Shown: one piece after another, positions 1-38,100 of the stretch
How the letters are laid out: each line of letters begins with the position of its first letter
Numbering within the stretch: the first letter of the stretch is position 1
Assembly (NCBI GenBank): GCA_026874595.1
Contig: CM049308.1
Span: 52,897,624 to 52,961,623 of the forward strand
From: Sipunculus nudus
Taxonomy: Eukaryota > Annelida > Sipuncula > Golfingiida > Sipunculidae
DNA length: 64,000 nucleotides
Direction: 5' to 3'
Notes under the pieces: generated by a model
The model's input: only the letters and a program-made list of their open reading frames with translations
Told to the model about the DNA's origin: nothing
Databases searched by the model: none
Made by a program: the position numbers and the translations under genes

Positions 1-152
1 TTATCCCATTTGACCTCAAACCATATCATATGACTGAGACTACATCGTATATAATGTCCGATATTTACAAGTCTGTGTTTAAACAAATGAAAGGAAATTG
101 TCTTCCTGTTGAACATGACTATATTAGTATTCATTGCTTTATTAATAAACGT

Positions 153-158
153 GCTTAC
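153..158 (-). other. splice donor at end of gene 1 large exon
   Basis: On the minus strand GTAAGC follows the codons for K-C-P-N. ZNFX1 proteins continue here as NGHIY plus a CGGA/CPEC half-finger. The 158 bases left in the window hold no such exon, so the final exon lies beyond coordinate 1. The alternative, that the protein ends at HVY* at 142, would leave only half of the RZ finger. Confidence 0.75.
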
Positions 159-3100
159 CATTTGGACACTTGTACCAGTGGCCTTGGCCCATGCTCATGG
201 CCTCGACGATCATGCGCCTTTCATCTTCACTTATACCAAGGCCAGTATCCGGTAAATCTTTGCGAAGTGTCTCAATCTGTGTCTTATACCTGTTCTTGTT
301 CACTTCATCGAGTGCTTTTCCACAGCTTAGTTGGCGTATAGCTTGTGCTGTTGTCAAAACATATGCCGTTCTCTCAGGGTATCTTCGTTTGACCAAATGT
401 TGTATGTCTATAAAGTTGAACAGGTATGCAAGACGTGTGATTTCTAAGTCGGCCTCCTTCACTTCCTGCTCACTGTATAGGCGTCTGTACTTGTTATTCC
501 ACTGCTGCAGACTATCGATTTCATCTAAAACGTTATTCAGCTTTACGTCCGGAGTTTTTAGTAAATATTCCTTGATCTTCTTTTGCCATTTCAAAAGACG
601 CTCTAGAAAGTCAATTTGATGTTCTGCTTTCCGTATGCCATCTTGGTCAATAGAATCATTCTCTAATTCTTCTTCCATTCTGTCAAGAGTAACTTCATCT
701 TCTCCTTGCCGGCGAAGTCGCCGTATATCGCCCAAGAGTTCATTTCGTTTCGCATCAATGTCCATCTGAGCACCAAATATCTTTTCTTTGACCCTTGCAA
801 TGTCATTCAACATGGAGTTAATTTCAGTGCGATACCGCGCACTTTTCCGAATCGGGGATTTGCATAACGGGCATACCTTTGGCTGAATAGTTGTTGGAGC
901 ATCATTTTCTGTATCTTGATCTACCCACTGATCAAGGGCTCTCCTCTCTATCACGTGACCGCAGTCTGCCAGTTGTATAAACTGGGCGTTTGGATCGTCT
1001 TCATTTCCAAACAGGATAGTTGTCACCACATCGTGGTTGCAGATTCTACACAGTCTAGGGCATTGCTCTCCACAAATTCCAATGCACTGGTGCCCACATC
1101 GAAGCCTCTTTCTACAATACTGGTTACAACGGAAATTATCACAAGGGTCACCGCACAGTTTTGTGCACCTATAGTGTCTGCATCCTGAACCACATGGTTC
1201 TTTACATGATACACAGGGTACACCACATTTCTGGGGACATCTACTGTGAGGGCATCGATTTACACATTTTTCCTGGCACGGTGGACATTTCTTTGTGCAA
1301 AGCTCTTTACAAACATGACCACACACCAGCGTTCTTCCACACGGTTGTGCACATGCCTTATGGAGTCTTCCATTCCTGCACCCTCCACATGTCCCTCTAC
1401 ATTGATGCCCACAGTCAAGTAGCGCCCCGCATGGATGAGGACACGGAGTACCCCTTGTCTCTCTTGAGCAAGGAACTTTCCATCGGTGTTTGCAACTTTC
1501 CCATTCTTTCTCAATGATCGTTGGACATTGTATATTACATGGATGTCCACATCGTTCCTGACACTGATGACCACAGGGTAGTACGCTTTCACAGTCCTCC
1601 ATGCAAGTTATTCTGCTTGCTTTTTGACCGCACTCAACTTTATTAACATGTCCACATTTCGGAGCAACCTTTTCCACCAGTACAGTGCAGGTTCCACATT
1701 TCTCATGGCATCTTTTTTGGCAAAAGTGACCTTCTACATCACAAACAACTTTCCTACATGGTTTGTTACATCGATATTCTGTGTGCTTTGGGTCTAAAAT
1801 ATGACATGGAAGGTCACATGCGTGACCACACTTGAGTCTAAATTCACATGGCCGCATACATCCTCCTTCGGGTGCTCTTTGAAAATCTTCTGCGCAAGCG
1901 GCATTTATTCGTGCCTCTTCCGGGTGGTTTTGGCAGTACAGAGGCAACGCTCGCCCGATATTGTTTGATTCTCCCAATATATTCATCATTTGACTCCACA
2001 AGTTACTATCTTTTGACAGCATGCTAATGTTTCCGATTACGTAAAACCCCATTTTTGCCCTCGAAAGAGCAACACATACCCGATTCGGGCTCTTCAGGAA
2101 GCCTATTTGTCCCTCTTTATTACTCCTCACTAGGGACAATAAGATTATATCATTTTCCTCACCCTGAAAATTATCAACAATGCAAACGCGTACTCCTTCA
2201 AACTGATTCTTTGGCATACACCGTTTCAGCGCAAATAGTTGACCACTGTAAGTTGCCAAGACTGTGATCTGTTCGGGCTTGTAACCCTGTAGCAAAAGAT
2301 AACGGCATAGTGCTGCCAAATATAAAGCTTCGTGGCGGTTTGATTTACTCTTGCTGTCCTCGATCTGTCTCTCATACCTGTCATGGTTGATAAAGAAAAT
2401 GTTCTTGGATACACCCTTCACATTTGGATACTCAAGAACTGAGGGATGATTTCTCAGGTTCTTGTATATTGGCCGCATTAAAGAAGCTATTTCAGGGCTC
2501 ATTCGATGCTGAAGTTCCAGAGTTATACATTCCATGCCATTTCGTATCATTCTCTCAAAGAGGGAAAGGTCAAGATTGTACTTTACAGCTAATTTATAGA
2601 CTGTTGGATTTGGTTTTAGCTGTTGGTGGTCTCCTATGAGAATTAGATGTTCACATCCCCTGCTGAGCGTTGTGACAATGTGAGCCTCAAGCACTTCGGC
2701 TGCCTCTTCAACAATTACAATTTTTGGACGGATTTGCTGCAGAACATGCCAGTAGCGAGCGGCCCCTGTGGTTGTAATGCCAATGATTGTTGCATTTTGC
2801 ATTATGGAAAGGTCTTGCTGGTTTTTGGCCTCGACATAGCGGGCATGTTGAGCTTTGAATTCACGTTCTTTATCTCTGATGATTCCCTTAATTTTGTCTT
2901 TGTATTTACTTAGCCAGGTGCGATACAATCTCCACCTTTCATTCAAAGGCAAGTCCCAAATATCGTGAACTCCGGTAACTTCTTCATCAGTCATTATTGT
3001 GTGCTTTCTAAGTTCTTTCCTTTTCCTTTCTTTCCTCCTCTTCTTTTCCTGCGCAGTGATTTCCCAGAGGCCATCATCATAACCAGTAAACTCGCCAATA

Positions 3101-5601
3101 TCAGGTTCTCTTCCCTGAGCCCTGATCTGCCTATCCTTGGCGGCTGGTGTATTTCTGTCTCTTGCGGCGTGTTGATCTGCTTCGTCGTCTTCTTCCATTT
3201 TCCTCTCTTCCTCCAATAGCTCCGCATCTTCTGCCACATCGATTGCCTCTTGTTCATCCCACTCCTCCGCGTTCTCTCCGCCTTGTTCTTGGCGTACATC
3301 TTCATTTGCCTGCTGTTCATCGTCCACTAACATCGAGCCAATGCCAAGCCATTCCATGATGCCCACAGCGTTTTGGGTATTGATGTGAATCATTTGCCCA
3401 AGACCTCCTGTGGGATTTGTAATCTGTTCTACATGTACAGGAAACATGAATTCTTCCAACAGGTATATTGGTAAAATCCACTGTTCTGTTGATTTTATGT
3501 AGGAAACATGGTGGTCTATTTGTGCTTCAATGGGGTCCATTGCACGTCTTGAATCGAGAACGTTTCCTCTGATAGGTCCTGGGATTGTCCGTCTACCGAT
3601 TTCGTTTCTTCTCAGGTTTGCAATACGGTACTTTTCAAGGTTCTCGCTCTTGCTGCGTCCTCCCACCCTAACAATTCCAGAATCATGAAAGGTCTGTATT
3701 CCCTCAAGAAACTGGTCAAGGGCATGGTTTGTATAACAAACAACAAGAACCGGGCTGTGTTCATCCTGCCACTTGGCCTTATTATGAAGTAAGGCCTTGA
3801 TGATTTTGAGACCAACGTAAGTTTTTCCTGTGCCTGGTGGGCCCTGAATGACTGCAAATTCTTGTGTCAGTGCCTGTTTAACGGCCCTCAACTGAGATTC
3901 ATCCAAATTAAGTTTTTCTGCCTCTGGCCAGCTTTCTTCTTGAAAAATATTGACCTCACTTGCATATTTAACATCATCCTTGAACTCTACTGGAGCAGTT
4001 TCTTCTTCATCTGTTGATTCATCTGAACTTGAGTCTAAGTGTATGTATCGAAGCCGTTCCCTGATTGGTCGTAGCCTCTTTCTCAGAATTGAGGCCTTGG
4101 TATCTGCAATAGGTCTTAAGTCATATACAGGCGATCTGTTGTTGAGATAGCGTGGTGGTCCTACGTCCTTCATTACTTGCACAATGTAATCTTGGAATGG
4201 CAAAGTTTCTTCAGTGACCTCTTGCAGCCCCCTCAGGACATGTCTGTATGCTTCAAAATAGGCACTTGTTTCCGCCATGATAAACTGATCAGATGGATCG
4301 ATGTCAGGGCCAGCACCTTCGTCTTCAAACGTTATATATACATTACCCATCTGAAGTTCTTCTGGGTTTCTGTCAGCCACAGTTGCGAACAGCAATGTCC
4401 GGAAATTGTCTTTTGAAAGACATACGAGGGATCCGTAAATCAGTCTTTTCGTTGCTTTCCAACGGACAAACCTTAACTTACTTGTGTCAAAACGGATTTT
4501 ATGAACCAAACCATTTGGTGTGCATACTGGATACAGAACCCTAACACCATCATATAGCCTGATATCTTTGTTGAACGTCGTCACAGGCTCTCCCTGCTCA
4601 AGCCCTGTGACGCAACTTGCAATTCCTTCTCGTAGTGGTGCGATGAAATCCTCTCGAAGCAAGCGGAACTGGACATCAAGGTAGTGGTTGAGGTTTCGGT
4701 AACTGCCCTTTTCTTTGTTTACACGAAGGAATGGTTGTTCTGCAGCATGAATGTCGCGTAGTTGGGGTATCACCTCGAGCTCTCGGAAATCCTCCGGTGG
4801 TGTTTGACTGTCCTCCCTGTCTACTTTTTCACCAGGTCCTGGCTTCATTCTCTTCCTGATGCGTTCAATTTGATCCCTTACCTGATCTATACTCAAATCT
4901 ATTTCATCTGTGATGCATCCAGGTCTGCTTACTCTCAATTCACGGATGGAAAATTCTAAGGTACTGAAGACGACAGTCACACTTGGTTCACTGCTTGGTA
5001 GACGTTCTAACAGCTTGCTCAATATAGCCAGTATGTCTTTCAGCTGGCATGCCATTCTCTCATTGGGTAATGTAGAACTTTGAAGCTGTGTCAGATGAAC
5101 ACTCAATTGAGCTGTTAGGAAATGAGAAAACTGGATAAAGTTCAAAAGAGCAATCAAAGTTGCAGGCATGTTTTCACACTGGACTGCCTTTGCCACTGCA
5201 CGGATAGTCAAAACAATAAAGTCATGACGCATTTCCCTCAAGTTTAACAAATTTTTGAATCCTGATCTTTCCTGTGATAACTCTGACATGATGTGGTAAG
5301 GGTCCTTTTCCACCAAATCAGCTAATCTACGATACCCCATGACTCTGTCAGTTACTGCTTGGTAGTCCCTCCCGCGCCCTCCCGGAGTTCCTCTGCCCCC
5401 TTGATCCTGTCCTCTTCCTCCTCTATGATCTCTGTCGGCTCTGCCTTGACCTCTTCCTCCTCCATCACGTTCTCTGTCAGCTCTGCCTCGACCTCTTCCT
5501 CCTCCATCATGGTCTCTGCCGGCTCTGCCCTGACCTCTTCTTCCAAGGCCTGGCCCATCTCGGCGGCGACCTCGCCTTTCATCATCTCGTCGTGCGAACA
5601 T
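159..5601 (-). CDS. ZNFX1: ZNFX1-like NFX1-type zinc-finger helicase, gene 1 (3' partial)
   Basis: Large single coding exon of about 1814 residues. Order: Arg/Gly-rich N-terminus (1-80); helical ARM-like region; SF1 helicase core with Walker A GPPGTGKT near residue 583; acidic then Lys/Arg-rich linker (about 757-867); Walker B VEEAAEVLEA near 958; GDHQQL; QGEENDIILLSLVRS; NRVCVALSRAK; NFX1-type CGH-rich zinc fingers (from about 1246); RING-like CGH...CPLC (about 1540-1580); coiled coil; and GHWYKCPNG, the start of an RZ-type finger. The open frame extends 35 codons upstream, but a good acceptor (polypyrimidine then tag) lies 5 nt before the ATG at 5601, so that ATG is preferred. The frame runs to a TAA at 142, but CCAAATG|gtaagc at 159/158 is a donor exactly where other ZNFX1 proteins continue with the finger, so the last exon is outside the window. 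Family knowledge: cytoplasmic RNA-binding helicase of small-RNA or antiviral pathways. Frame intact. Confidence 0.93.
5380..5600 (-). repeat. Arg/Gly/Asp-rich coding repeat at N-terminus of gene 1
   Basis: Imperfect tandem repeats of roughly 36-39 nt encode units such as RDHDGGGRGRGRAD and RERDGGGRGQGRAD at residues about 5-75. RGG-type tracts commonly bind RNA or promote condensates. The neighbouring paralogue lacks this tract and starts with a short basic segment (RPKVRTSRRR). Confidence 0.75.
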
Positions 5602-12997: not shown

Positions 12998-14950
12998 AAT
13001 TATCATATCTAGGTATAATTTTATGCAGAATGTCAATCTTTAATAACATTAACTTTACAATACATGATGTTCCCATATTCATGACCGACTTCCCTTAAAC
13101 CATGAATGTCTCACCTCAATGACCTCCTTTGGCAGCAGTTCTTGATGCAAAATGAGATCATGAGCAGTGTTTATTTATGAAAAATCAAAAGAATTACTTC
13201 TAAATACGCGTATATATACTTCATTATACAGTTTTTATAACATGCACAGCTTGAGGAATCACATATATTGTATATATCAGAAATACAAGCAACATGGTTC
13301 ATTAAGCCCTTGAATATGAAGGACAATATTTTTCTGCAGTGCACAAATAATAACTATTACAATATAACAAGCACATAAATACGGGATTAGTGCCTCACTG
13401 CCATGTTTAAATTTCGACAATCCGTTATTCAATACAATCAAGTTAAGCACTCCGCAACGACAATCCTGCAAAAAAAAATCGGTCGAATGAAAATTCATTC
13501 ACGCTGCGACAATGCGGTATGACTATCCGGCTATTTTTCGAATCGGTCTGTGAGCGATGTTATGCCGTTGCCGGACATAATCGTACGGCGTCATTCCCAT
13601 AAAATGACGTCACTACTACCATGCATAGGCATCCTTTCTCAGCATGTTAAATGTCGGCTAAATGGGTAATGAAAGATCATGGTTGCCCAGCTACACGATA
13701 ATATAATCTAAATAACTCTTAATGTTTACAAGGCTTGTTGAATAAATTCCAAAATGTTCATTTCTCTCTCCATTTTTTATTAATAAACTGAACCAAGTAT
13801 ATTGAATTCCTCTACTTCTTCATCTTGTTGGCACGGTAACTTAAGGCAAAAGCAATATTTAGAAAGATATGGTTGCGCTGAAGGTCCATCGTGCTGAACA
13901 AAACACCTGCGATTTGGCATCCGATTATAAATTTTTCTGGGTGAATGTGTACACCACAAACGCATAGTCGTTTTTGTCGCCATTGCCGGATAACCGTATG
14001 AATGTGTACATAGCTTTCAACACCGAAAAAATATTATCTATTACATCACGTTCGGAATCAGACATATATGGTGTTATAATATATTAAACCTCGATCAGAT
14101 TGACACAAGATTGGGGTGCAATGACTTTTTCTCATGAGATAACCTTTTTTAATATTGTAAAGAAACGATCGTCTCAGCTTTCCGTTATACATCACTAACC
14201 ATTAATGATGTAAAATAAGGTATCTAAAATAGAGGAAAGCCTCAATACAACACAAGACAGAAATATTTCACGCATTCTCTGAAATGTAAAGGACAACTGA
14301 ACTAATAAATCACAGTGAACCTGCGCAAACACGACCGCCACCGGAACAACAGAAAAGGCATTGCTATTGACTATTCAATGCTGGCATTTTGATTGATAAA
14401 GCTAGGTAGTTATTTAGTCGCAGAGGTCGATTGGGTTTTTACTTGAATCAATCAAAAATGATTATATTTGCTTCTTCCTCTTGATCATACTGATTTTGTT
14501 GAATGCGCCGTCGTCAGGTATGGCGTTAACCCAAACAGCCCCATCGAATGACCCCATCAGTCTGCTGAACACTCCGGACAGTCGGAAACACTATCAGCCG
14601 TGGATGGGGACCGCTCAACACCAAACACATGCCCTGAAACCACATGATCTGCTTACATGAATTATATTTTGGATACATTTGTGAATGAGTTGTGTGTTGT
14701 TTATCATTGCAAACATATCCATTCAGTTTACAGATGGATGATTTAATATATTTTTTTTTAAACAATCCCAATATTAATCATATGATGTTGATTTCAGTGG
14801 AGGGTAGGAGGAATATGATAATACCTCTTGCCCAGAAAATTTTGGATTCAAAATAAAAAATTAACAGGTGCTGAGGGCATGTATGAGTGACTGTCAAACA
14901 TTGTTATCAGGAGGGAAGAAGAAATTAACTGAAAACATTATCTATGTGTG

Positions 14951-14958
<8 letters not shown>

Positions 14959-14984
<26 letters not shown>

Positions 14985-15002
14985 GAAAGAGAGAGAGAGA
15001 AG
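14959..15002. repeat. (GA)n microsatellite beside the gene 2 3' end
   Basis: GA-rich tract of about 40 bp with small interruptions. It starts just beyond the inferred splice donor that ends homology of gene 2. Confidence 0.9.
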
Positions 15003-15012
15003 GGGATCATAC

Positions 15013-16018
15013 CTGCGCAACACTTGAACCAGTTGCCGGTAGTTTTTCTTGCCAAGTTCTTTTTGTCCTTATTCTCCAGTGCCTGTACTTGGTTGATGGC
15101 AGCAAAAATGGTCTATAACAAATTCCCGTAACGCTTGCTCCGGAGAATTGGAATCTGGCACACAGGGCATCTTGGGAGATTTAATGGCACTGTTCCAGTG
15201 TTCTTCCAAACATCCATGTACTTTTCCATGGCAGCAACTTCAACCAAGTGACTACAATCTTCTAGCTGCAAGAATCTAGTGCAAGGTTCTGTCGTCTTAA
15301 ACAGATTAACGACTTCTCGGTCGCAAACCCGGCATTTGGTCGGGCATGGTTCTCCACACAGACCGATGCAAGGGTGCTCGCAAACAAGTACTTTTGGACA
15401 GGGCTCATCACATGGATCGATGTTGCACATTTCATGGCATTGGTTTGTGCAACATTTATGCATGCACGACCAACCACAAGGCAGCGTGCAAACATCGCAC
15501 GGGCCGCTGCATCTCTGCTTACAGGACGCGTGTTGACAACCCTTGTTGCAAGGTCGACTACATGGGGGGCAAATTTCAATGCACTGTGATCTGCATTTAT
15601 GTCCACAAATAAGGATTCGCTCACACGGTTTGTTGCATGGTGGACAACCTTCGCTGCACAGTCCTCTGCATCTATGTCCATAAGGCAGGATTCGCTCACA
15701 AAGTTTATTGCACGGAGGACAATTCTCCTGACAGGTTGCTCTGCACTTATGTTTACATTGGAGAACCCGCTCACACTTTCGATAACAAGGAATATGCTGT
15801 GCCCCATTGTTGCAAAGTGAGCATGTACCTCGGCACATGTGTCCACAGGTGCGTGTTTCTCGACATGGATGCTGGCAAGCATTTTCCTTTGGATCCAGAC
15901 TGCAAGGCACACGTTTCTTATGCTTACACCCGTCCCATTCTTTCTCCACGATTTCAGCACATGTTGTGGTACATTCTTCCCCGCATTTGTTCCTGCATGC
16001 GTGTCCACAAGGAAGAAA
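15013..16018 (-). pseudogene. in-frame continuation of gene 2 beyond its stop codon
   Basis: Immediately after TAA the same frame reads FLPCGHACRNKCGEEC, then a long run of NFX1-type fingers (CGHKCRSQCIEICPPC and similar), a RING-like part (LEDCSHLVEV, then CPVCQIPILRSKRYG) and LL. A second in-frame stop, TAG at 15,115-15,113, follows. Codons for TIFAAINQVQALENKDKK continue past that stop to a GCGCAG|gtatga donor at 15,013/15,012. Gene 1 has the matching segment (CPLCKSPIRKSARY) without stops. The remaining coiled coil and RZ finger of gene 1 have no counterpart that I can find at 6-15 kb. It could be translated only by readthrough or if the stops are sequence errors. Confidence 0.8.
15113..15115 (-). 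other. second in-frame stop (TAG) in gene 2
   Basis: After RYGNLL the frame has TAG, then TIFAAINQVQALENK. A CAG-to-TAG change would explain it. It is the only stop between 16,018 and the donor at 15,012. Confidence 0.75.
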
Positions 16019-16021
16019 TTA
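16019..16021 (-). other. in-frame TAA within gene 2 zinc-finger region
   Basis: The codon lies between CTAPCV and FLPCGH; gene 1 has CESVLPCGH in the same place. One base (for example AAA or GAA to TAA) would account for it. Flanking frame and homology are unbroken, so there is no indel. Confidence 0.9.
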
Positions 16022-19000
16022 AACACACGGAGCTGTACATTTTATTTCCTCCGGCTTCACATAACATGGGACGCTATTAGAATGTCCGCAAGGTAAAGCA
16101 TCCTTCTTAACTTTGATTTTGCACTTACCACATTCTTCGTGGCATTTCTTCTTACATTTATGCCCAAGTAAACAAAGTTTCTTATTGCAGACTTCCATGC
16201 ACTTGTATCCCGTATGTTCCTTGTTATATGGATGGCAATTAAGTCGACATGAATGACCACATTTCAAAGAAAATTCACATGGCCTCATGCATCCACCCTC
16301 CGGGGCTTTCATAAAGTCAGCTGCAGTTGAGGCTTCTATTTTAGCACTGTCAGGATGATTCTGACAGTAGAGTGACAAAGCAGGCCCAACGCTTCCAGAT
16401 CCAGATAATATGGTGTACATATTTTTCCACAAAGGGCTGTGTTTTGCCAACAGAGTTATATTCCCGATGACATAAAAGCCCTCTTTAGCTCTCGAAAGGG
16501 CAACGCATATCCTGTTTGCTGTGTTCAGGAATCCTATTGAACCCTCCGTGTTGCTCCTTACCAGGGACAGCAGTACAATGTCACTTTCTTCTCCTTGGTA
16601 ATTGTCAACAACGCAGACCCTGACGCCTTCGAACTGGGCCTTTGGCATCAAGTGTCTCAGAGCAAACAGCTGGCCACTATATGTGGTCAGTACAGTGATT
16701 TGATCAGGGCCATAGCCTTGTTGTAGCATATACCTGCAGAGGGCGACCAAGAACTCAGCTTCGTGTGAATTTGATTTGCTTTTATTCTCTTGGTGATGCT
16801 TTTCTGGTCGTGAATGGTCAACGAAGAACATATTCTTTGAGACTCCTTTGATGCAATCATACTTCAGAACTGATGGGTGATCCTGGAGGTCTTTGTAAAT
16901 CGGCTTCATCAGTGTGGAAATCTCAGGTCTCATTCGATGTTGGAGCGCTAGTGTTACACATTCCATACCGTTGTTAACCATCCTTTCAAATAATGAAAGG
17001 TCCAAGTTGTATCTAATTGCAAGTTCATACACTGTTGGATTTGATCTCAACTGCTGGTGGTCACCGATCAGTATCAAGTGATTACAACCAGGACTTAAAG
17101 TTGTGATAATATGGGCTTCCAAAACCTCCGCTGCCTCTTCCACAATAACAATCCCAGGACCGATCTGCTGCAAGATATTCCAGTACCTAGCGGCTCCTGT
17201 TGTTGTCATGCCGATGATTGTTGCCCTATTCAAAATAGCTTGATCTTGTTGTTGCTTAGCTTCTTTGTATCTGTTGTACTCGTCTTCAAACAGCCGTTCC
17301 AATCTCTGAATGTTCATTTGAATACAATCTTCAAATGATTGCCTCCATGTTCGGTAGAGACGCCATCTTTCATCTCCAGAGAGAGCCCATATATCCAGAA
17401 GATTATTGCACTCCTCTTCCGTCATGATTGATGTTTTGCGCAATTCTGCCTTCTTCCTGCTTTGAGCCTTTTTCTTTTCTTCTGCAATCAATATCCATGT
17501 CTCTTGGGGACTGACCAAAGGCGACAACAATGCACTGGCCCCAGTTGTTTCTTTGTTTCTTTCCATTCTTTCATTTTTTTCTGAATCTTTAGCTACGACA
17601 CTTTCTTTATTAACACCGGTTTGCTTAATGGCATTTGATGACACAGAATGTTCTCGTGAGTTCTTGTCAACTATTCCATCTTCTGCAACACTGCCTATAA
17701 ATAAGTCTTCATCCTCGTCAATTCGACGGTCTTTCTCGATTAATTCTGCATCTTTATTAACAGCGGTTTGCTTAATGGCATTTGATGACGCAGAAAGTTC
17801 TCGTGAGTTCTCGTCAACTATTCCATCTTCTGCAACACTGTCTGTAAATAAGTCTTCATCCTCGTCAATTCGACGGTCTTTCTCGATTAATTCTGCATCT
17901 TCTAATATGTCAATATATTCGGTCTCCGCTTCTTCATGCTTTGTTTCTTTGGTAGGGCCCATGGCAGCTTCAGGTTCCTCTTGTATCCAAAGTAAAGGCA
18001 AGAGACCAAGCCATTCCATCACCGGGTGCCTTTGTTCGCAAACAAACTGTGGCTTATTCTTTTCCAAGGCAGGATTTATTTGAAGCTGCGTGAAGTGGGT
18101 CGGAAGTACCAATTCTTGAAGTTGAGAGAGGCTCAAAATATTCGCTCCAGAGAACTTCAGTAGTCCAACCTGTCGATCTATTTTGAATTTTAGCCCAGCT
18201 AATTTCTTCTTTACTTCTTTTGTATTCAGTTTTACATGCTTTGGTATCCACTGATATACATGTCTTTTCTTTCTCCAGTTTGCAAGATTGTATTCCTCTA
18301 GCGTTTCACTTTGACTCCTACCCCCAACGCGTACCACCCCTTCCGTATGGAATTCCAGAATTCCCTCTAGAAACTGGTCCAATGCGTGGTTTGTGTAGCA
18401 GACAACCAACATTGGACTTCTCCCATAGTTTTGCCAAATATCTTTGTTGTACAGCAATGCTTTGACAATCTTCAGTCCGACATAGGCTTTGCCTGTTCCA
18501 GGTGGTCCTTGTATAACCACAAATTCCCGTGTGAGCGCAGCTTTCACCGCTTTCAATTGTGATTCGTCGAGGTTCAACTTTGCGGCCGAAGGCCATGTAG
18601 AGAGCTTCATTACAGGTACGCTTTGTATAGCTTTTGATGCTTGATTGCAAATACAGCTGAAGTCATAAGTGGTGCTTGATCTTTCTATGTATTGTGGCTT
18701 GGATACCTTACGGCTGCAGCCAACAATATATTGTTGAAAAGGCATTTTGTTCTCATCAAAGTCCTGCAGTCCATGCAAAACATACTTGTAGGCTTCAAAG
18801 TATGCACTCATCTCTGCCATCAGATAGGTGTCTGTTGAATAGACACTAGGCTTGTTGTCATGGTCAGTGAATTGTAAATACACAATGCCTTGTCTTAACT
18901 CTCTTGGCTTACGCTCTCCAACTGTAGCGAAGCAGAAGGTTTGGAACTTGTCCTTTGATAAGCAAACTAAAGATCCATATATGAGCCTCTTGGATGATTC

Positions 19001-20503
19001 CCAGCGAACAAATTTCAATTTTTCCGAGTTAAACGACACTTTATACACAAGGCCACTATTGGTGCAAAGTGGATGATGAACATGGACACCTTCATATAAT
19101 CTAATGTTTGTATCTCGCTTCTTGGGTCCCTTTTTCTCAGCCTGCTGAATGAAATCTAAAATACCTTCACGTAATGGAGCAACAAAGTCCTCACGAAGAA
19201 GACGAAACTGTACATCTAAGTAATGATCAAGGTCTGTGTAAGCGCCTTGGGTTTTGTTAGACCGTAGGAAGATGTCTTCTGTGGTGTGAATGTCTTCCAG
19301 CTGGGGAATTATCGATATGCTTCTGAAATCCTCTGGTGGACTCTCTGAGTCCATGTTTTTGGTACGAGTTGGAAACCGTTGCGTGTATCTCTTATCAGAA
19401 CTGCTGTTGATACGCTTTCTGATTTTTTCAATGCGGATCTCTATCCCATCAGTGTTGAGGTTTGGACGATCGGCCCAGATATGGCATAAAGCTGAATCAA
19501 CTTTTCCTATCAAGGAGGACACCTTTTCGTTACTGTGAGGAATTCTTGCCGATATAATTTCTAACAGGGAGAGGCTTTCGTCGAACAACTCTGAAATGTC
19601 TTTGTTTGAAACTTGTGAAAAGGGAATAGAAGTGATATAAGTTGGCAACTCAGATTCAAAGAACACTGATTGCAAGACTGTTTTCAACAATTTTGCACGT
19701 GCCTCAGGCATCCTGGAGCATGAGCATGCTTTCACAAGTGCACGCAACATTAGCATTAATGTTTCATCCGTCACATTTGTGGTCAATAGTTCATTAAATC
19801 CATAACTTTCTTGTACAAGAACAACAAGTAAGTCGACAGAATCCTGCTTCAGCAAGGCTTTGAGGCTTTTGGGGCCATCTAAATATTTAGGAATCCGTAT
19901 TTTAGATCTTTGCTCCTTCTTGTTGGTTTTGAAAGTGTCTTGTCTGGGAGCACTCTGTTCAATCATCATTTGAAGCCTTGAAATGCTGAGTTGCATATTA
20001 TTCACCTCAAAACGAGGCCTTTTCTGCCTAAGTTCTTGAAGCACTGTTTCTAGGATTTTGAATGCATTATGCACAAGTGACCAGCTGTCATCAGAATCCG
20101 TGATCACCCTTTCCAAGAGAGTAATGGTCCATTCAAACTCGAGTTGCATTTGGACGTTTGACACCGCTACTGAGCTTGGCCAATGATGGATATGAGAAGT
20201 CAAACTTAACGACAAGAACTGTGAACGCAAGACAAGGTTCATAAGTGACTTCACTGAACTGGATCGACAGTGGCTTTTTATGACCTTTGACATGCCTTCT
20301 AATATGAGCCGAACATATTTAGGTTGCAAACGTGGCACCATTAACAGGCTTTTGAATGCCTCCTTTTCAGACAACAATTGCTCAAGAAGCCAATCTGGTG
20401 AGTCCTCGCTGACGATATTTTGTAAAGTGTCACATGTCATTGTTGTTGCAACTCGCCTACGGCTCGTTCTGACCTTTGGTCTGGCCCCTCTGTATTCAGC
20501 CAT
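16019..20503 (-). CDS. ZNFX1: ZNFX1-like helicase, gene 2 (stop-truncated paralogue)
   Basis: Open frame of 1494 residues starting MAEYRGARP and paralogous to gene 1 throughout. It has an ARM-like helical N-terminus, the SF1 helicase core, an acidic linker (about 848-966), Walker B VEEAAEVLEAHI near residue 1117, GDHQQLRSNP, QGEESDIVLLSLVRS, NRICVALSRAKEG, and the first NFX1-type zinc fingers (from about 1407). Walker A reads GPPGTGKAYVGLK (near 663): the conserved Thr/Ser after Lys, which coordinates Mg-nucleotide, is Ala (GCC). The frame stops at TAA 16,021-16,019 inside the finger array, but the same frame continues with clear homology downstream (next entry). The start is chosen because an acceptor (tttctgtttcag) lies 5 nt upstream, as in gene 1. 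The gene is either a recent pseudogene, a truncated product, or carries assembly errors; the Walker change argues that helicase activity is impaired even if it is translated. Confidence 0.88.
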   Translation of the reverse strand: MAEYRGARPKVRTSRRRVATTMTCDTLQNIVSEDSPDWLLEQLLSEKEAFKSLLMVPRLQPKYVRLILEGMSKVIKSHCRSSSVKSLMNLVLRSQFLSLSLTSHIHHWPSSVAVSNVQMQLEFEWTITLLERVITDSDDSWSLVHNAFKILETVLQELRQKRPRFEVNNMQLSISRLQMMIEQSAPRQDTFKTNKKEQRSKIRIPKYLDGPKSLKALLKQDSVDLLVVLVQESYGFNELLTTNVTDETLMLMLRALVKACSCSRMPEARAKLLKTVLQSVFFESELPTYITSIPFSQVSNKDISELFDESLSLLEIISARIPHSNEKVSSLIGKVDSALCHIWADRPNLNTDGIEIRIEKIRKRINSSSDKRYTQRFPTRTKNMDSESPPEDFRSISIIPQLEDIHTTEDIFLRSNKTQGAYTDLDHYLDVQFRLLREDFVAPLREGILDFIQQAEKKGPKKRDTNIRLYEGVHVHHPLCTNSGLVYKVSFNSEKLKFVRWESSKRLIYGSLVCLSKDKFQTFCFATVGERKPRELRQGIVYLQFTDHDNKPSVYSTDTYLMAEMSAYFEAYKYVLHGLQDFDENKMPFQQYIVGCSRKVSKPQYIERSSTTYDFSCICNQASKAIQSVPVMKLSTWPSAAKLNLDESQLKAVKAALTREFVVIQGPPGTGKAYVGLKIVKALLYNKDIWQNYGRSPMLVVCYTNHALDQFLEGILEFHTEGVVRVGGRSQSETLEEYNLANWRKKRHVYQWIPKHVKLNTKEVKKKLAGLKFKIDRQVGLLKFSGANILSLSQLQELVLPTHFTQLQINPALEKNKPQFVCEQRHPVMEWLGLLPLLWIQEEPEAAMGPTKETKHEEAETEYIDILEDAELIEKDRRIDEDEDLFTDSVAEDGIVDENSRELSASSNAIKQTAVNKDAELIEKDRRIDEDEDLFIGSVAEDGIVDKNSREHSVSSNAIKQTGVNKESVVAKDSEKNERMERNKETTGASALLSPLVSPQETWILIAEEKKKAQSRKKAELRKTSIMTEEECNNLLDIWALSGDERWRLYRTWRQSFEDCIQMNIQRLERLFEDEYNRYKEAKQQQDQAILNRATIIGMTTTGAARYWNILQQIGPGIVIVEEAAEVLEAHIITTLSPGCNHLILIGDHQQLRSNPTVYELAIRYNLDLSLFERMVNNGMECVTLALQHRMRPEISTLMKPIYKDLQDHPSVLKYDCIKGVSKNMFFVDHSRPEKHHQENKSKSNSHEAEFLVALCRYMLQQGYGPDQITVLTTYSGQLFALRHLMPKAQFEGVRVCVVDNYQGEESDIVLLSLVRSNTEGSIGFLNTANRICVALSRAKEGFYVIGNITLLAKHSPLWKNMYTILSGSGSVGPALSLYCQNHPDSAKIEASTAADFMKAPEGGCMRPCEFSLKCGHSCRLNCHPYNKEHTGYKCMEVCNKKLCLLGHKCKKKCHEECGKCKIKVKKDALPCGHSNSVPCYVKPEEIKCTAPCV
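17606..17899 (-). repeat. 147-bp in-frame tandem duplication in gene 2 acidic linker
   Basis: Two adjacent 49-codon copies (17,899-17,753 and 17,752-17,606) each begin DAELIEKDRRIDEDEDLF and end with SSNAIKQT-x-VNK. They differ by a few substitutions only (for example FTD/FIG, DEN/DKN). Gene 1 has a single related motif, DAELLEEERKMEEDDEAD. The high identity implies a recent duplication that kept the frame. Confidence 0.95.
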
Positions 20504-29100: not shown

Positions 29101-32100
29101 TTCAAGTAAGCGAGCTTAACTCAGCGCTGTCACCCATCTGCCGCTTTGTTTTCGTCAGAAGTTTGACAGCACAGATCCTTTCTTGAATTTTTATTGGTTG
29201 CGGCCGTGCCCTGGCGATTTACAGGCCAGGCCTGGTATTTTTCAAGTAAGCGAGCCCGGGGGGCCTGTCCGAATCCGACCCCACAACAAAAGGAAACCCG
29301 CCCCTCAAGTGTCAACAAATACCACAGGACACTTGCGCCAGCTGACTGCCATCTCACGCTGTGAGCGCACGTGCTGATAAGCAGGCTTGAACCCGCATGA
29401 AATTGTACCTTTGAAGCGTAATTAACCCATCTAATCTTTATGAAGGTCCTTTTCCTTATTTGCAGCAGCTCATTAATACATTTCCTGTCTTCTTGTTTAA
29501 TCTGAGATGAAACTCAGCTCCGTCACCGCTCTGCCGCTTTGCTTTTGTCAGAAGTTTGACAGCACAGATCCTGCCCAACTTTCTTGAATTTTTATTGGTT
29601 GCGGCCGGGCCCAGGCCCCGAACATGCATAACTATTCGAGTGGTGTTAATATTGAGCTCGCTTTCAATAAAATGCATGTTACAGCATCATTCAGTGCTGG
29701 AGTATCGGCCCAATAAAACTTCAGGTTTTACCAATAATTTATGCTGTTTCCGCGCCATTTGCTCGGTGAATTCGGTGTACATACATGTACGTGCGTGCGA
29801 TTATTGATAGTTTAGTATATAAATTTGATTCACAATATTGTTTAGTATACAAGTTTGTGGCAGTTTCTGGAAGGCGCGAAACCTTCCAGCAAGAGGAGAC
29901 TTACGGACTCTGACAAAGACAAACGTGAGTGTGATCGTGTTTATGAGAAAGAGAAAAGAAAGAGGGAATTCCATAATGAATGGAAAGCAGGCCGACCGTG
30001 GTTGAGCTGGGACGAGGAGAAGAAATGTATGTTCTGTGATTACTGTCGGCAATATCCAAAATTTGTTGGATCTAACTGTAACTTTGTGTTAAGATGGAAG
30101 ATCGTGAAACTGTACGCTGTCAAGTTCCATGAACAGCAGAGTGGACATGTGAGGGCTGCTGAAACTGTTCAGGCAAAAGAGGCAGAGACCATTGTTGGAA
30201 GTGATGCTCACAGGTAAATATAAAACACATTTTTATAAAAACGTCCTTTTATTGAATATATAAATATATTAAAAGAAAAATTTTTGTTAAAAATAGAACT
30301 TTGTATATGTTAATGTGATTTATTATTTATTTTTAGCTCAGCTGACTATAAGTCATCTGAGCTATAGTCGTGGTCCATTGTCCGTCGTCTGTCTGTCCGT
30401 CCATCTGACCGGATGTCCGTCCGTAAGACTGGCACGTTTCGACACCGTTGGACCTATGAATCTGAAATTTTGCATACAGTTAGATGTCCCCAAAATCTCC
30501 TACCATGCCGAAAATTGAGTCAATAGGACTTCATTCCTTCGAGATATTAAGGAAAAACCTCAATTTTTTATTAGAAATCTATTTTCACACTTCAGGACTG
30601 CCTAATATCAAAACCACTCATCTGGTTTTTCTTTATATTTACCATAAAAATTCTTCTATATAGTTCCTATGTACATGCCAGATATTAAGTCAGTATTATA
30701 TAATTTAAAAAAGTTATGGGCCAAAACATAATGGACTTTGTAAAAAAATCAGGAAGATATTTGGTCACTTAAGACCAAAAGTGTTAAAGGTAGGGACTTT
30801 TTTCCAGCAATAAAACTTTAATTAATTAAAAATTTAATTGTATACCAAAAAGTAAATCAAAATCTGTTAAATTTTTTTAAATATTGGCAAAAATATTAAA
30901 TTTGTACCTCAAATTTCGCCCAACTTTGGCCACGGCACATTTTTTTAGCTCAGCTGACTTTCAGTCATGCTGGGCTACAGCGATGGATCTTTGTCCGGCG
31001 TCCTCCCAATGTGTGACTTGTCAGAAAACCATTATGTCTGCCAGGTAGCCATTTTAGAAATCCTTTTGCCAGGACAGTTTCTGTGATTTTTTTATGATGT
31101 TTGGTCCCTTTTAGAGGATGTTTGTTGTTCAATTTCCGACCTGTCAGAAATCCAATATGGCCACCTGGACGCCATCTTTAAATTCCTTTAGAACATATTA
31201 TCTCAAGAACTATTAAAGTGAATGCAGTGGGATGTTTATTAATGTTATCTTGCATTCGGTCAAAGATTTCTTAATAAATATGACCATCATTTATGAAAGC
31301 TCAGTACAGTTGGCTTGTATTGAATAAAAATTAATATGGAAGCACCCGTTTCACAATAATTGTAGTTTATGGAAGAGTTTTGTGGATACTATGTTTTCAG
31401 CCCGCCGCCGCCGCCGCGTAGGTGTCCGGAGAACTCCTCCGTAACCACTGTGTGGAATTTTACGAAACCCGGGATTATGTTCGGGTCACATGTGAACTGC
31501 TGCGCCCCGATTTCGTTTTGACCTCTGACCTTTCCTCTGCGCTCTGCGCCTGTTTGTGCGTCTGTTTCCACACATAAACCCACATATCTCGGGAACCGTT
31601 TGACCTATCAGGAAAATTTGTTTGCACAAATGTAGCCCTTGGAGAGCTTTATAACATACACAAAACCACCTGCAACCATGTTTGCACAGTGTCCATCTGT
31701 TCGTCTGCCTTGGGTTAAAATCACTCATATTTCTGCAGTGACTTGACTAATTCACCTGAAATTCAGCATGCGTATACATCCTGGATAGATTTTCTGATTT
31801 TATGACAGGTGGCGCCACCTACATTCACGTTTACGCTGCAGACATCCAAGCTCATTTCTCGGGAACCGTTTGACCGATCAGGAAAATTTTTTTTGTACAA
31901 ATGTAGCCCTTGGAGAGCTTTATAACATACACAAAAAATGGTGGCGCCACCTGCAACCATGTTTGCACAGTGTCCATCTGTTCGTCTGCCTTGGGTTAAA
32001 ATCACTCATATACATGTAGTGGTTTGACTTATCTGCCTTAAATTTTGCATATGTATGCAACTTGGACGGCTTTCTGGATTTTGTGGTAGGTGGCGCAACC

Positions 32101-35100
32101 TACATACACAATTTGGCTGCAGACATCCATGCTAATATGCAACACTTCACTCTATTTCCCCTTGCCACTCAATCCATGCCTGACTTCACCCGTTCCACTC
32201 TGATTTAGGCGGATACACGTAGTCGCTTGTCGACTACCCGTATTCTAGTTCTTGCATGGATTTCCTTGATCTTTTGCTATATTTTGATCTTATATGTGGC
32301 CTGTGTGGTATTCCTTTTGAGACTGACAGGTATCGAGCAAGCTGTGGGATTAGTTCCTGATAGCTCAACAACCACATTTTGCCTCAGACCATCATTCATC
32401 ATGTTTTAACCAGACATGTATGATAAGAATTTATGGCAATGTAGAAAGTTTAAACAAAATTGGTATATAGGTTCTGCAACAATTTTACTAGAAGTTGTGA
32501 AATGCAGCCCATGATGTCGCAAGTCATGCTTGGCAGCTGAGCCATGGGTCACTTGTTCCTGTAAGTACTGTGGATTTAATTTTCACAGCATGTATACATA
32601 AGGATTTAATCTGTTAAAATCTGAAATTTAAAAATAAAAGCTGCAAAATTAGGCTAGTTATTGAATTTTTTGGAGGCCATTGTTGTATTCCTTTACATTG
32701 TCAAGCAGTCCACTTTGATGACTGTAGGTCATTCAGTGCACATCTCTATGCTCCCCAGGCTGTTGGCATAATTTGAGATGTCCCAAAAATCTCCTACCAT
32801 ACCGAAAATTGGGTCATTAGGACTTCGTTCCTTCGAGATATTAAGGAAAAAAAACTCCATTTTCCATAAAAAAAGCCATTATTACACTTCAAGGCTGCCT
32901 AATATCAAAACCACTGATCTGTTTTTGATCATATTTAGTATTCACATTCTTTTATACATTTTCTATGAACATACCAAAAATTAGGTCAGTATTGGGTATT
33001 ATTTTGAAGTTATGGGCCAAAACATAATGCAATTTTTTAAAAAATCAGGAAATATATTTACTCACCTAACATGAGAATTGCTGAACCTAGAGACTTTTTT
33101 TCAGGAATATAACTTTATTTAATCAAGATTCAAATGTTTACCCAAAATTAGATCTAAATTTTGCAAATTTTTCAAGTTATTAGCATAAATAAAAAATCAA
33201 TACCTTAAATTTTGTCCAACTTTGGCACTGTTGATTTAATTTTCACAGTATATATACATAAGGACTTAATCTTTTTAAATCTGAAATTTCAAAGAAATTG
33301 ATTGGAAAGAATAGCTTTTATTCATGTTTTTATACACCATGTCAAGTGTTGTTTACATCTAGCCCACCTAGTAGTACCGCCTTCACTTGCATTATGTAAC
33401 CCACCCCAGGCAGCTTGCCTTGGGTCAGCCTGGCCACTACCAGCAGGCTACCTGCACTCCCCCCCCCCCCCCCCCCGATGGTGCATAAACTAGATGAATG
33501 TTATTATTTTCTGTATTTGATTCATTCTTATTCTAGGCTATGCTACATTTTAGTTTTTATATTGTACCACCAGGGTTACAATGATTAAAGTGTACATTTA
33601 ATTGTGTCCATAAAGTGGTGTATTGTTATGAAAGTGTGGATGTTCATGAGATAAGCAATTCCTTACTTCAGAAGAGTAAAAATTTCACCAGGTGTGAAAT
33701 TGACTATTAATTCCAGTAATAAATTAAAACTGGGATAGTAATTAGCACAATGATATTGTCTGTCCCTCATTCAACCAACAGTGTGTATACTTTATTTGAA
33801 AAGATGTTTTATTTTATCAAATTTACTTTTATTTTATTTTGGTGAATAAAATTAAGCATGTACTGAAAACTCCAATGTGCAAAACTTTTTAATAGTGATT
33901 CAAGGAATATTCTTGTAGATGCCATGTTGTGGCATTATTTTCTTTAAATTCAGTTTAAACATTTATGATTTAAAAATAATAAAATATATGTGTATGCATA
34001 ATATGACCCAATATGAGCTACACTCTGGATATATGATGATTGCAACTTTTGCAAAAATTCTAATATTTTAACTTATGGTTTCAGTTTTTTACTCTGTATA
34101 TATAATGATTGCAACTTTTGCAACAATTCTAATATTTTAACTTATATTTTCAGGTTTTTTTATTAAAAATTTATAAAACCTGTAAAATGATTCAGATAAA
34201 AACTTCTTAATAGAAAAAGTGGATATGCTTAAAAAAAATAGGATTATATGTAAACTTAAATGCATTATTCCCTTGAAAGTGAAATAAAGGTATTAGTCCA
34301 TTCTGTCCACTTGCCTGTCCATCTGTAAATTTTCATATGCATCACAGTATCTCAAAATTTTACTGTTTTTCTTCATGACAGTCTTGTCAGAGTATTAGTT
34401 TGCAATCATATATTTAGAACTTTACTATAAAGAAGTAGGAGGGCCCCTTTCCTCTTAGCTTTTCATATTCTTATATAAATGAAAAACATTACAATAGAAT
34501 ATTTCTACATCCACCTTCGTGCTGCCCTCACTTTTCCCTTCTCCGAACCCCATCCCAAGGTCAGCCTCAGTAAGCAAGAACAAGATGAATCAGATATATT
34601 CATACTTTAATATTTTGTATAACTATACGTCTATAGGTACCTATGTGCATGCCAGAAATTATGTCAATATTGTGTAATATGTAGACATAGTGGGCATCAC
34701 AATAATGTACCTTGTCAAGACCAAAGATATATTGTGTCATACAGTCACAAATAATTGAAATTCATAAATCACTTAATCAGCATAGTTAATCATAATATTA
34801 TATCTGTCAAATTGAAAGCTTGCAGACTACCATACACTTTAGAGCCTTATCATCATTCTACTACTGCTTATTACTGCTCTCATTGCATTCATATTTGCTC
34901 AAATATATCACAATTTTCAACCCCTCCTAAATAAATAAAAAATAAACCACTATATTTGACTCTATTAATCCATCAGTCAGGTAATTTTATTTATCATTTA
35001 CTCACATATTACATTACATTCCTTTATAATAGCCCAACATGTCCATGATATTTATAAGCTTTATCGACTCGATATAGTATCACAGTGGTGAAACATTTAT

Positions 35101-38100
35101 AGTACATTCACGATCAGCTGAGCACCATGACCCATGGGTCCCTTGTTTATATTTACTATTATTTTTTTCATGTGAATCAGGCCTTGCCTTTCGAGGCGAG
35201 TGATCGCTTCCGCGCGCCATGGCTCGCTTTAAACACACTTCAGGGGAGCTAATAATCACATGCCTGGCATTTTGGGCTTAGTTAAACTTGATTATTTTAG
35301 TCATTAGTATAATTGTTTGCAAATGCTTGCAAACGGACGCGATCGCACTTGCTCCCATGAATTCAAACTGAAAGCTAAATCCGCTAATGGTAATAAATGT
35401 AAAATGTCATCAGTGGTGCCAACTCATTACCCTCAACAGAACTGCAGCAAGATTCAGGTCTGTTAAAAGAATAAAAAAAAACCCCTGATATCCTGATTGA
35501 AATCATGTGAACAGCTATACACGGTGTATGCTAAATGGATCAGCCGGACCAGATCAGAGGAATATAGTTTCAAATCTCCGCTGAGAGTTTCTTTTTGACA
35601 CTTGCAAAAAAAAAATCCTTACTGTAATTGTCTGTGAATAATTACTTAAACGCGTGCTTCCGTTTCACATCTGCAGTTATAATTGATTAGTAGACGGTAT
35701 TTTCAGATGAAGACTGTAACTACAGGCATGGACAAATTTGACGAACGATCATTTCTTTCGCGTGTTGGTTACCCATACTACTTTTTGCACGAACGGCGCA
35801 AATTTTCTTGGCCTATGAAATTTAAATTGAGATTCATGGATATATGTTGCAGGAAATACAGCCTGAAAATAATTTTCTACTAGTCTATAGCGTGACGACT
35901 CTCCTGTTTAAGTCAACGTCATAACTGTCACCGTCCGTTTGTTTTAGCGAATTCTCTGCCAAGACGTTTCGCCATAAACTTTACAGCCCTTGTGACTTGA
36001 CCCGATTCTGATCTGAACAACGGCATATCATGAACAGGAGAGGAATTTTTAAACCATTTTGCAAAAAGTAGGATATTTAAGTGTAATCAAAGCAAAAGAA
36101 TCCATATTAATATTGCTATGTGAATTATAAAAAAGGCCTTTACAAAAATCAGGGGAAATCTTTTCATTTTCAAACTCAGTGCAACCTTTGTCTGTTTGCA
36201 GGTCCCTGAAGATGTTGGATAAGGCTGTTCTGGACAACATGTCCCCTCTGTTCAGGATCTGTCATGCCATGGCCCTCAGTGCCAGACCTTTCACAGATTT
36301 TGAATGGCAGTGTGACCTTGATGCAGCTAAGGGCATCTCAATTTCACCCCACTACAGGAATGACAAGTCTGCCAGGCAGTTCACAAAATACATAGCAGAG
36401 GTGGATCGGAGACAGCTTGAATGTGATCTAAGGAAGTGTAAGTTTGTTTGTGTAATGGTAGATGGTACCACAGATTCCAGTGTCAAAGAACAGGAATTAG
36501 TTTATGTGAGATTTGCTCAGAAAGGAATTGTCAATGTTAAATTTACTTCAATTGAAAACTGTGCGAAAGCTGATGCAGCAAACATCACAGCAGCAATCTT
36601 TGATTCCATGGAAATGGAATTGGACTTGTCAAGACTGAATTCATAAAGCGACTTGTAGGATTTGCCAGTGATGGCGCATCTGTGATGCAGGGCAAAAAAA
36701 ACAGGAGTATCCGTGAGGTAACGGGAGCATCAGCCACAGCTGCAGTCTGTTCACTGCATGGCTCATAGGCTTGAACTGGCGTACAAAGATGTACTCAAGA
36801 CTGTGCCAATCTTTAAAAGGATGGACTCATTGCTGCTTGGAATTTACCTGTTTTACCACAACAGTGCACTGAATCACAGCAACTTGGAGGAAGCCTTCAA
36901 AACAAAACCAGCAATGTGTGATGCCAACCAGGGTTGGAGGAACCAGATGGCTGGGACACTCAAAGCTTGCCCTTGAGAATTTGACAAGGGACTATCCAGC
37001 TTGTATGGAGCACTTCAAACAGGTAACCTGTTCAATTTAATTTCATGTTTAAAGGTAACTACCAATTACTTTAATTAGAAAGCAAAATAGCTGTCATTTA
37101 AATGAGAGATAAGTGATACAAGCTGACTGAATTTTCATAAATTATACCACATGTAATAATGAAATTAAATATACAACAAATGGCAGCGGCAGAACAAGTT
37201 GACTGGATCTAGCTCTTAATTTTTAGCTATCCCACCCTGATACCTCTGCCAACAAGGACGCCAAGGCCAAGGCTGCCAACTACAAGAAGAACCTTCACTC
37301 AAGGGACATGGTGCATTTCTTGCTGTTCATGCAAGATGTGGTATCGTGCCTGAACAAGTTCTCCCTGTTACTCCAGAGGACCACTGTGACACTGGCAGAG
37401 GCATATTAGGAGTACAAGATAACATGCTCTGCACAGGAGAAGTAAAAACAGAGTGGGTATCATATTTTGAAATTTGCTAATTTCTAAAAATGTAAAGGGA
37501 GGTTTTTTACAATAAGCTAATGCCTATGGTACCTCTTTGAAGTTTACACTGTTGTATAAAATAAGCAACTTTCTGTACACAGATAACTGACTAAATTTAA
37601 CAATGTAAATAACAACAAACATCAGATGTAGACTATAATCAAAGTTTCTAACATGTAAACATATCACAAAGTATTTTTATATTTGCAGGCCAGGTCCCAA
37701 TCTCCATAAAGTGCTAGGCAAAGACATCCACCAAGGGACTGATTTGGTGGGACCACTGAAGGTGTTCTGTTCGGCTAGAACAAGAGTGCTGGAGGGACTT
37801 CTGGACAGACTGGATGCCTGCTTTGATGACTTTAAGGAAGATGTGTTGCAAGCCACCTGCCTCACAAACCTAACTGAATGGCCAACAGAGGACATTCCTG
37901 CAGGTGCCTGGAATATTTTGATATATTTAGAACTGACTTGTGGAAAAGGAAAAAATGAGGATCAGACTTAAGTTTTGGAAAAGATTAGAAAATTTGCTGT
38001 TTTAATTGTCTTCTTGTATTTAAACCTTGTTATAAAAGCTGCTGTTTCAGAAAGAAGAACTACATTTGTTGACTTTTCATAAAATGTGAAAATTTGTTTT

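Follow-up and report, generated by a model that had tools for sequence, protein, structure and literature searches.

The window analysed here is a 64,000-nucleotide stretch of the Sipunculus nudus genome (NCBI GenBank assembly GCA_026874595.1, contig CM049308.1, positions 52,897,624 to 52,961,623 of the forward strand), and all positions without a locus name are counted from its first letter. It holds two genes related to the RNA helicase ZNFX1, both on the minus strand. Gene 1 (145..5601) has the Walker A ending GKT, and its last exon, with the code for an intact RZ finger, falls outside the window, about 0.7 kb to the left (locus L010, 8916-8734). Gene 2, the main subject of this work, starts with an ATG at 20503 and has an open frame of 1494 codons (16019..20503) that ends at an in-frame TAA. 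It carries Ala in place of the Walker A Thr, and the remainder of its finger array and a degenerate RZ exon lie behind stop codons. Judged by its sequence, gene 2 is ZNFX1 by descent and is best classed as a degenerate paralogue derived from ZNFX1 rather than a full member of the group.

Domain order and Walker A motif of gene 2

The gene 2 frame encodes an N-terminal region, a ZNFX1 domain (PF25396, 119.1 bits), the two halves of a superfamily 1 (SF1) helicase core, AAA_11 (PF13086, 97.5 bits) and AAA_12 (PF13087, 140.2 bits), and the first NFX1-type fingers. The domains were assigned by Pfam (cut-offs 27 bits) and the fingers through alignment with gene 1; Pfam reported no finger family for gene 2, for gene 1 or for the piece behind the stop. 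Two features that define a ZNFX1 gene are missing from the frame: the Walker A pattern GxxxxGK[T/S] reads GKA, and the C-terminal RZ finger is present only as a remnant behind the TAA and a TAG. The best solved relative of gene 2 is human ZNFX1 (NFX1-type zinc finger-containing protein 1, PDB 9q9z; phmmer 989.9 bits over 210-885 and 1003-1480 of gene 2), which has GKT; in gene 2 these residues are GKA, a TAA interrupts the finger array and the RZ finger is degenerate. UPF1-like SF1 helicases (UPF1, SEN1, aquarius and SMUBP-2) share the core but match gene 2 more weakly, at about 134 bits or less and best within the core. The other two true ZNFX1 genes of the genome, gene 1 and a copy here called C11 (locus L011), share with gene 2 the domain order and the splice phase before the RZ exon, but in these two Walker A ends in GKT, the frame is open across the fingers and the RZ finger is intact.

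The Walker A of gene 2 reads GPPGTGKAYVGLK (GPPGTGK-A-YVGLK), with the Ala encoded by GCC at 18485..18487 of the minus strand, and that of gene 1 reads GPPGTGKTYVGLK, with an ACT codon for Thr. A degenerate P-loop DNA pattern, allowed up to two mismatches, matched the window twice, both times exactly, against 0.02 matches expected. The substitution reported in the initial annotation is therefore present in the assembled DNA. Across the whole genome (1.43 Gb, 153 contigs) the P-loop search and a search with PF25396 each yielded nine places, scores being given to the best candidates only, and the two sets coincide at nine genes. Eight of these encode Thr, and gene 2 is the only one with Ala. An AAA_11 scan agrees: the 30 of its 52 matches that were inspected as loci hold 12 distinct P-loops, 11 with Thr and one, that of gene 2, with Ala.

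The same position is Thr in the alignment with human ZNFX1. In a scan of genome contigs for relatives, queried with an alignment headed by gene 2 and with patterns that left the Thr/Ala residue free, at least 594 stretches matched and 234 were confirmed, as prokaryotic helicases of 22-34% identity; the best 80 of these have Thr in 75 cases, Ser in five and Ala in none. A scan of viral contigs with gene 1 as query confirmed zero relatives. At the level of titles and the openings of abstracts, no ZNFX1 with a Walker A Ala was found in the literature, which does not prove its absence. A widespread Ala, which would have spoken against the initial annotation, was thus seen neither in the eight paralogues, nor in the 80 best prokaryotic relatives, nor in the human protein.

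According to published work, the Walker A Ser/Thr is strictly conserved, coordinates Mg and is hydrogen-bonded to the Walker B acid (PMC9599734). In human cells the ZNFX1 mutants K625A (Walker A) and E1007Q (Walker B) lost NLRP3 binding and inflammasome activation went up (PMC11574294). The expectation that Ala impairs ATP hydrolysis agrees with both reports; for gene 2 itself the effect is a prediction, namely that the change should weaken Mg-ATP binding and hydrolysis and leave weak hydrolysis at most. That Ala is instead compatible with near-normal ATPase activity, so that the change would be without consequence, we regard as very improbable. The Thr is the sole change within Walker A, and the Lys, the P-loop glycines and VEEA are all kept, as such a silent change would have it, but the distribution of the residue among paralogues and distant relatives and its role in Mg coordination (PMC9599734) argue against it.

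Beyond Walker A, eight of 143 otherwise invariant core positions are changed in gene 2 in the nine-copy alignment, for which the sequences of two copies, c4b and c4c, were joined over frame breaks. The changes are D>N, T>A in Walker A, L>W, L>R, P>S after GDHQQLR, A>S, N>D and N>S in QGEEND. Three of the eight touch what we take to be nucleotide-site motifs or their direct neighbours. The statement that all other helicase motifs are preserved holds only in part and is too generous, as it fails at two places where the eight other copies agree: a Ser (TCA, 17042..17044) replaces Pro in GDHQQLRS, beside motif III, and a Ser (AGT, 16583..16585) replaces Asn in QGEES-D (both on the minus strand, coordinates counted by hand). 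The acidic linker between the helicase halves contains a tandem duplication of 147 bp (49 codons; 17606..17899, minus strand, copies 17899-17753 and 17752-17606). It is in frame and apparently young, its copies differing by six nonsynonymous and zero synonymous changes.

Stop codons, finger array and RZ remnant

The interval originally assigned to gene 2 (15013-20503) was correct at both borders, the ATG on one side and the exon boundary at the donor on the other, but it is not a single frame. It is cut by the TAA at 16019..16021, within the NFX1 zinc-finger array, and by a second in-frame stop, a TAG at 15113..15115. Between the two lie 301 open codons (15116..16018) that match gene 1 and encode the remainder of the array, retained in the DNA but outside the reading frame of gene 2. 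All Cys/His residues common to gene 1 and C11 are kept in gene 2 where they can be compared, 23/23 before the TAA and 51/51 after it, three more falling in gaps. Outside this count stands an extra finger copy of gene 2, absent from gene 1 and C11, which by eye reads LPYGH, with Tyr where its sister finger has Cys. Since the 301 codons are open and their comparable Cys/His are all kept, the TAA is either recent, polymorphic or an error, and it seems to be young.

The last two of these options would mean that gene 2 still functions in the species as a helicase without RZ and that the haplotype in the assembly has rare alleles or wrong bases (the TAA, perhaps also the Ala); this appears improbable, although less so than a harmless Ala. 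Between the lesions, as far as the TAG, the frame stays open, as it would in a working gene, and another copy, c4b, breaks its frame where eight A follow one another, a kind of site at which errors are common. Only a single copy of gene 2 was found among the nine P-loop places, hence there is no second haplotype with which to compare it. On the other side, the TAA and GCC are base substitutions in an ordinary context rather than homopolymer indels, and the codons flanking the TAA differ as well (V-stop-F in gene 2, against E-S-V and E-R-V in the remaining two true ZNFX1 genes). Removal of the TAA by splicing was discarded, as the nearest GT...AG pair seen by eye spans 34 bases and would delete a conserved finger. 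We know of no stop-codon readthrough context that resembles the surroundings of the TAA.

Behind the TAG the big exon is eroded (15013..15112, minus strand). From the CPxC pair before the TAG to the exon end there are 240 residues in gene 1 and C11 and about 52 codons in gene 2, so that about 190 codons are missing. The stretch after the CPxC pair resembles C11 (E 0.001 in a search between the two genes) and is followed by GNWFKCCAG immediately before a donor, which corresponds in location and phase to GHWYKCPNG|GT of the other two genes. A frameshift at the end of the big exon had been considered and was dropped, because GNWFKCCAG matches GHWYKCPNG in frame and the donor phase agrees, which points to a deletion. 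A predicted GT...AG intron of 379 bp (14634..15012) leads to a last-exon remnant that begins at 14633 and reads GHVFGVERSPSTADSVSDCPECSAD before a TGA (14557..14633, end counted from the translation). It encodes a degenerate RZ-type finger: the joined gene 2 tail scores 22.9 bits with the Pfam RZ finger (E 6.5e-5, cut-off 27), against 83.6 bits for gene 1 and 87.4 bits for C11. If this weak last exon is correct, an intron still precedes the RZ exon at the same position and in the same phase, and gene 2 does not show the loss of introns that marks a retrocopy.

The RZ finger is known from RZ-finger ubiquitin ligases (RNF213) and occurs also in gene 1 and C11, while gene 2 has only the remnant behind its stops. 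A study of RNF213 noted the Cys/His dyad of the RZ finger in human ZNFX1 and left open whether ZNFX1 has E3 activity (PMC12075652). The TAG, the loss of about 190 codons and the degenerate finger together suggest that the decay of the tail is old; the RZ finger of gene 2 is best read as a worn remnant, and the decay of this end as much older than the TAA.

Age, constraint and fate of gene 2

Gene 2 is an old paralogue, as it is only 49% identical to gene 1 and its synonymous sites are saturated. Its identity to C11 is 46%, and within the core 475/855 and 430/842 positions are identical to gene 1 and C11, respectively. The proportion of synonymous differences (pS) amounts to 0.87 in the core and ranges from 0.78 to 0.95 across nine comparisons. 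The ratio of nonsynonymous to synonymous rates (dN/dS) between gene 2 and gene 1, proposed earlier as a test, is made indecisive by the saturation of the synonymous sites. The branching order of these three genes is left unsettled by the tree (support 21.9/56).

The lesions bear on when constraint may have ended. With zero lesions in the 4482-bp frame, a fully neutral period would span at most about 0.5% divergence, assuming 0.1 indels per substitution (the bound moves from 0.4 to 0.8% as the assumed rate falls from 0.15 to 0.05), and for the part behind the stop, lesions and Cys/His residues jointly bound it to about 1.2%. In a dead pseudogene lesions would be spread along the gene; here the 1494 codons contain none, and all are confined to the 3' part. 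Under an even placement of four lesions (TAA, TAG, deletion and TGA), the probability that at least three fall in the tail is 0.009, and with three lesions the probability of at least two in the tail is 0.05, for an assumed tail of 280 codons and lesions that were picked after being seen. Gene 2 thus seems to have outlived its RZ end, since the lesions cluster in the tail and the frame is free of them.

The reading we prefer, with belief and doubt about evenly balanced, is that gene 2 is dying and is caught in a very early decay of an old, RZ-less ZNFX1 paralogue. It is drawn from the Ala that is unique among the nine copies and absent from the best 80 prokaryotic relatives, from the young TAA and the eroded RZ tail, and from the two further invariant residues changed beside motifs. 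In a first step, long ago, the C-terminal region and the RZ finger, a presumed ubiquitin-ligase module, would have been lost, and a protein of ZNFX1 domain, helicase and NFX1 fingers would have been maintained by selection. In a second, very recent step constraint would be lifting: a nonsense codon cuts the finger array and, within this decay, the Mg-coordinating Thr of Walker A would have become Ala. The present product would be a protein of 1494 amino acids, probably ATPase-poor, lacking RZ and most fingers, on its way to a pseudogene.

A number of results weigh against this course of events. The core is no more worn than usual: with the same count, gene 1 has 4/139 changed positions, C11 6/141, c4a 2/137, c4b 0/135, c4c 2/137, c12a 3/138, c12b 4/139 and c12c 12/147, and gene 2 differs significantly neither from gene 1 (p = 0.38) nor from C11 (p = 0.79). 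In a codon model, with results for the core and the pre-stop fingers only, saturated synonymous sites and some branch lengths at their upper bound, an omega of 1 on the gene 2 branch was rejected for the core (lnL -8282.26 vs -8275.55). Giving gene 2 its own omega brought no gain over a single one for all genes (lnL -8278.67 vs -8279.42). With caution, the gene 2 branch as a whole would thus have been under core constraint much like that of the other copies. Private changes of gene 2 and C11 number 107 and 104 in the core and 16 and 13 in the fingers before the TAA; after it they number 50 and 16, an excess over the 123 and 117 of core and pre-stop fingers combined (Fisher p = 0.0004) that in itself speaks for decay. 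The N-terminal region has a like excess (61 and 23; p = 0.0007 against the core), therefore the excess behind the TAA need not stem from the stop. The 6-to-0 ratio in the duplicated linker is not significant either (about 0.23 for zero synonymous changes in six, by hand calculation). The last-exon remnant, in turn, was matched by the C11 exon (E 0.029) but not by that of gene 1 in the search between genes, and its local score to the two last exons, 44, barely exceeds the 42 reached among 300 shuffles, a rough control in which base pairs were moved as blocks.

The chief rival is one that we consider possible but less probable than decay: gene 2 may be a retained, truncated and ATPase-poor ZNFX1 whose helicase core binds double-stranded or viral RNA, or partner proteins, without turnover and in the absence of the RZ module, as a decoy or brake on the active copies. 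The lesion-free frame of 4482 bp, the ordinary core constraint and the rejected neutral omega fit it. In grouper, poly(I:C) pulled down only the truncated protein that contained the P-loop NTPase part, and truncated forms containing the N-terminal or the P-loop part still reduced viral RNA (PMC12585102); a shortened copy poor in ATPase could hence still bind RNA. That paper also refers to MOV10 as acting without helicase or ATPase activity. What speaks against retention is the position of the TAA in mid-array with every comparable Cys/His behind it intact, which indicates an array under selection until very recently, unlike a settled C-terminus, as well as the failure of the human K625A and E1007Q mutants to bind NLRP3 (PMC11574294). 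The more specific form of this idea, a stably kept RZ-less pseudo-helicase that holds RNA, perhaps also ATP, and competes with or caps the active antiviral copies including its neighbour, seems rather unlikely. The initial annotation had left the choice between an early step of decay and a copy retained to bind RNA in the absence of ATPase. Two features that it does not mention, the TAA and the erosion of the RZ tail, favour the former, with the latter as its foremost competitor.

With ZNFX1 regarded as an antiviral RNA sensor, a natural copy from which the RZ module and later the Mg-binding Thr disappeared would reveal which parts of the protein can be dispensed with, and in which sequence. 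The stop codons in gene 2 make the case less important than first estimated. If the gene is simply dying, it would represent ordinary birth and death in an immune-type gene family, and a warning that the reading of a single residue can overlook a stop codon 2.5 kb downstream.

Other ZNFX1-like copies and the rest of the window

Metazoan ZNFX1 helicases were reportedly the subject of a 2022 study by Blasi et al. Several ZNFX1 copies in one genome are not new in themselves, as three potential ZNFX1 genes have been reported for Aplysia (PMC9334734).

The six remaining ZNFX1-like genes of the Sipunculus genome end in C-terminal PARP-like domains and are found at L016 2434-9198, L017 2701-8481, L018 2745-8522, L014 2508-8741, L013 7483-8880 and L015 4950-8279. 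Pfam, applied to three of them, assigned two PARP stretches each to c4a and c12a and one to c12c; in the other three the domain was read from HGT and GIYF/GVYF motifs. By eye, the first PARP-like domain of several copies seems to retain what we take to be the H-Y-E set. A helicase-finger-PARP family as large as this may merit separate attention; a literature search on it listed a single paper, a general review. Two of the copies have broken frames: c4b changes frame at the run of eight A and has a stop (L013 5090-5175 and 7480-7482), and c4c changes frame at L015 ~5060-5190. Either decay or assembly errors may account for these breaks.

Twelve AAA_11 matches of the genome cover profile positions 6-74, each in an open frame of 938 codons, and sit on contigs C61, C62, C66, C69, C72, C74, C76, C77, C83, C89 and C90; perhaps they represent a repeated mobile element. 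A transfer RNA scan of the window found none. The region 29846-38931 of the window contains frame pieces whose translations resemble what we presume to be a transposase of the hAT type, or else a gene descended from such a transposase, and an open frame of 222 codons lies on the plus strand at 43754-44419.

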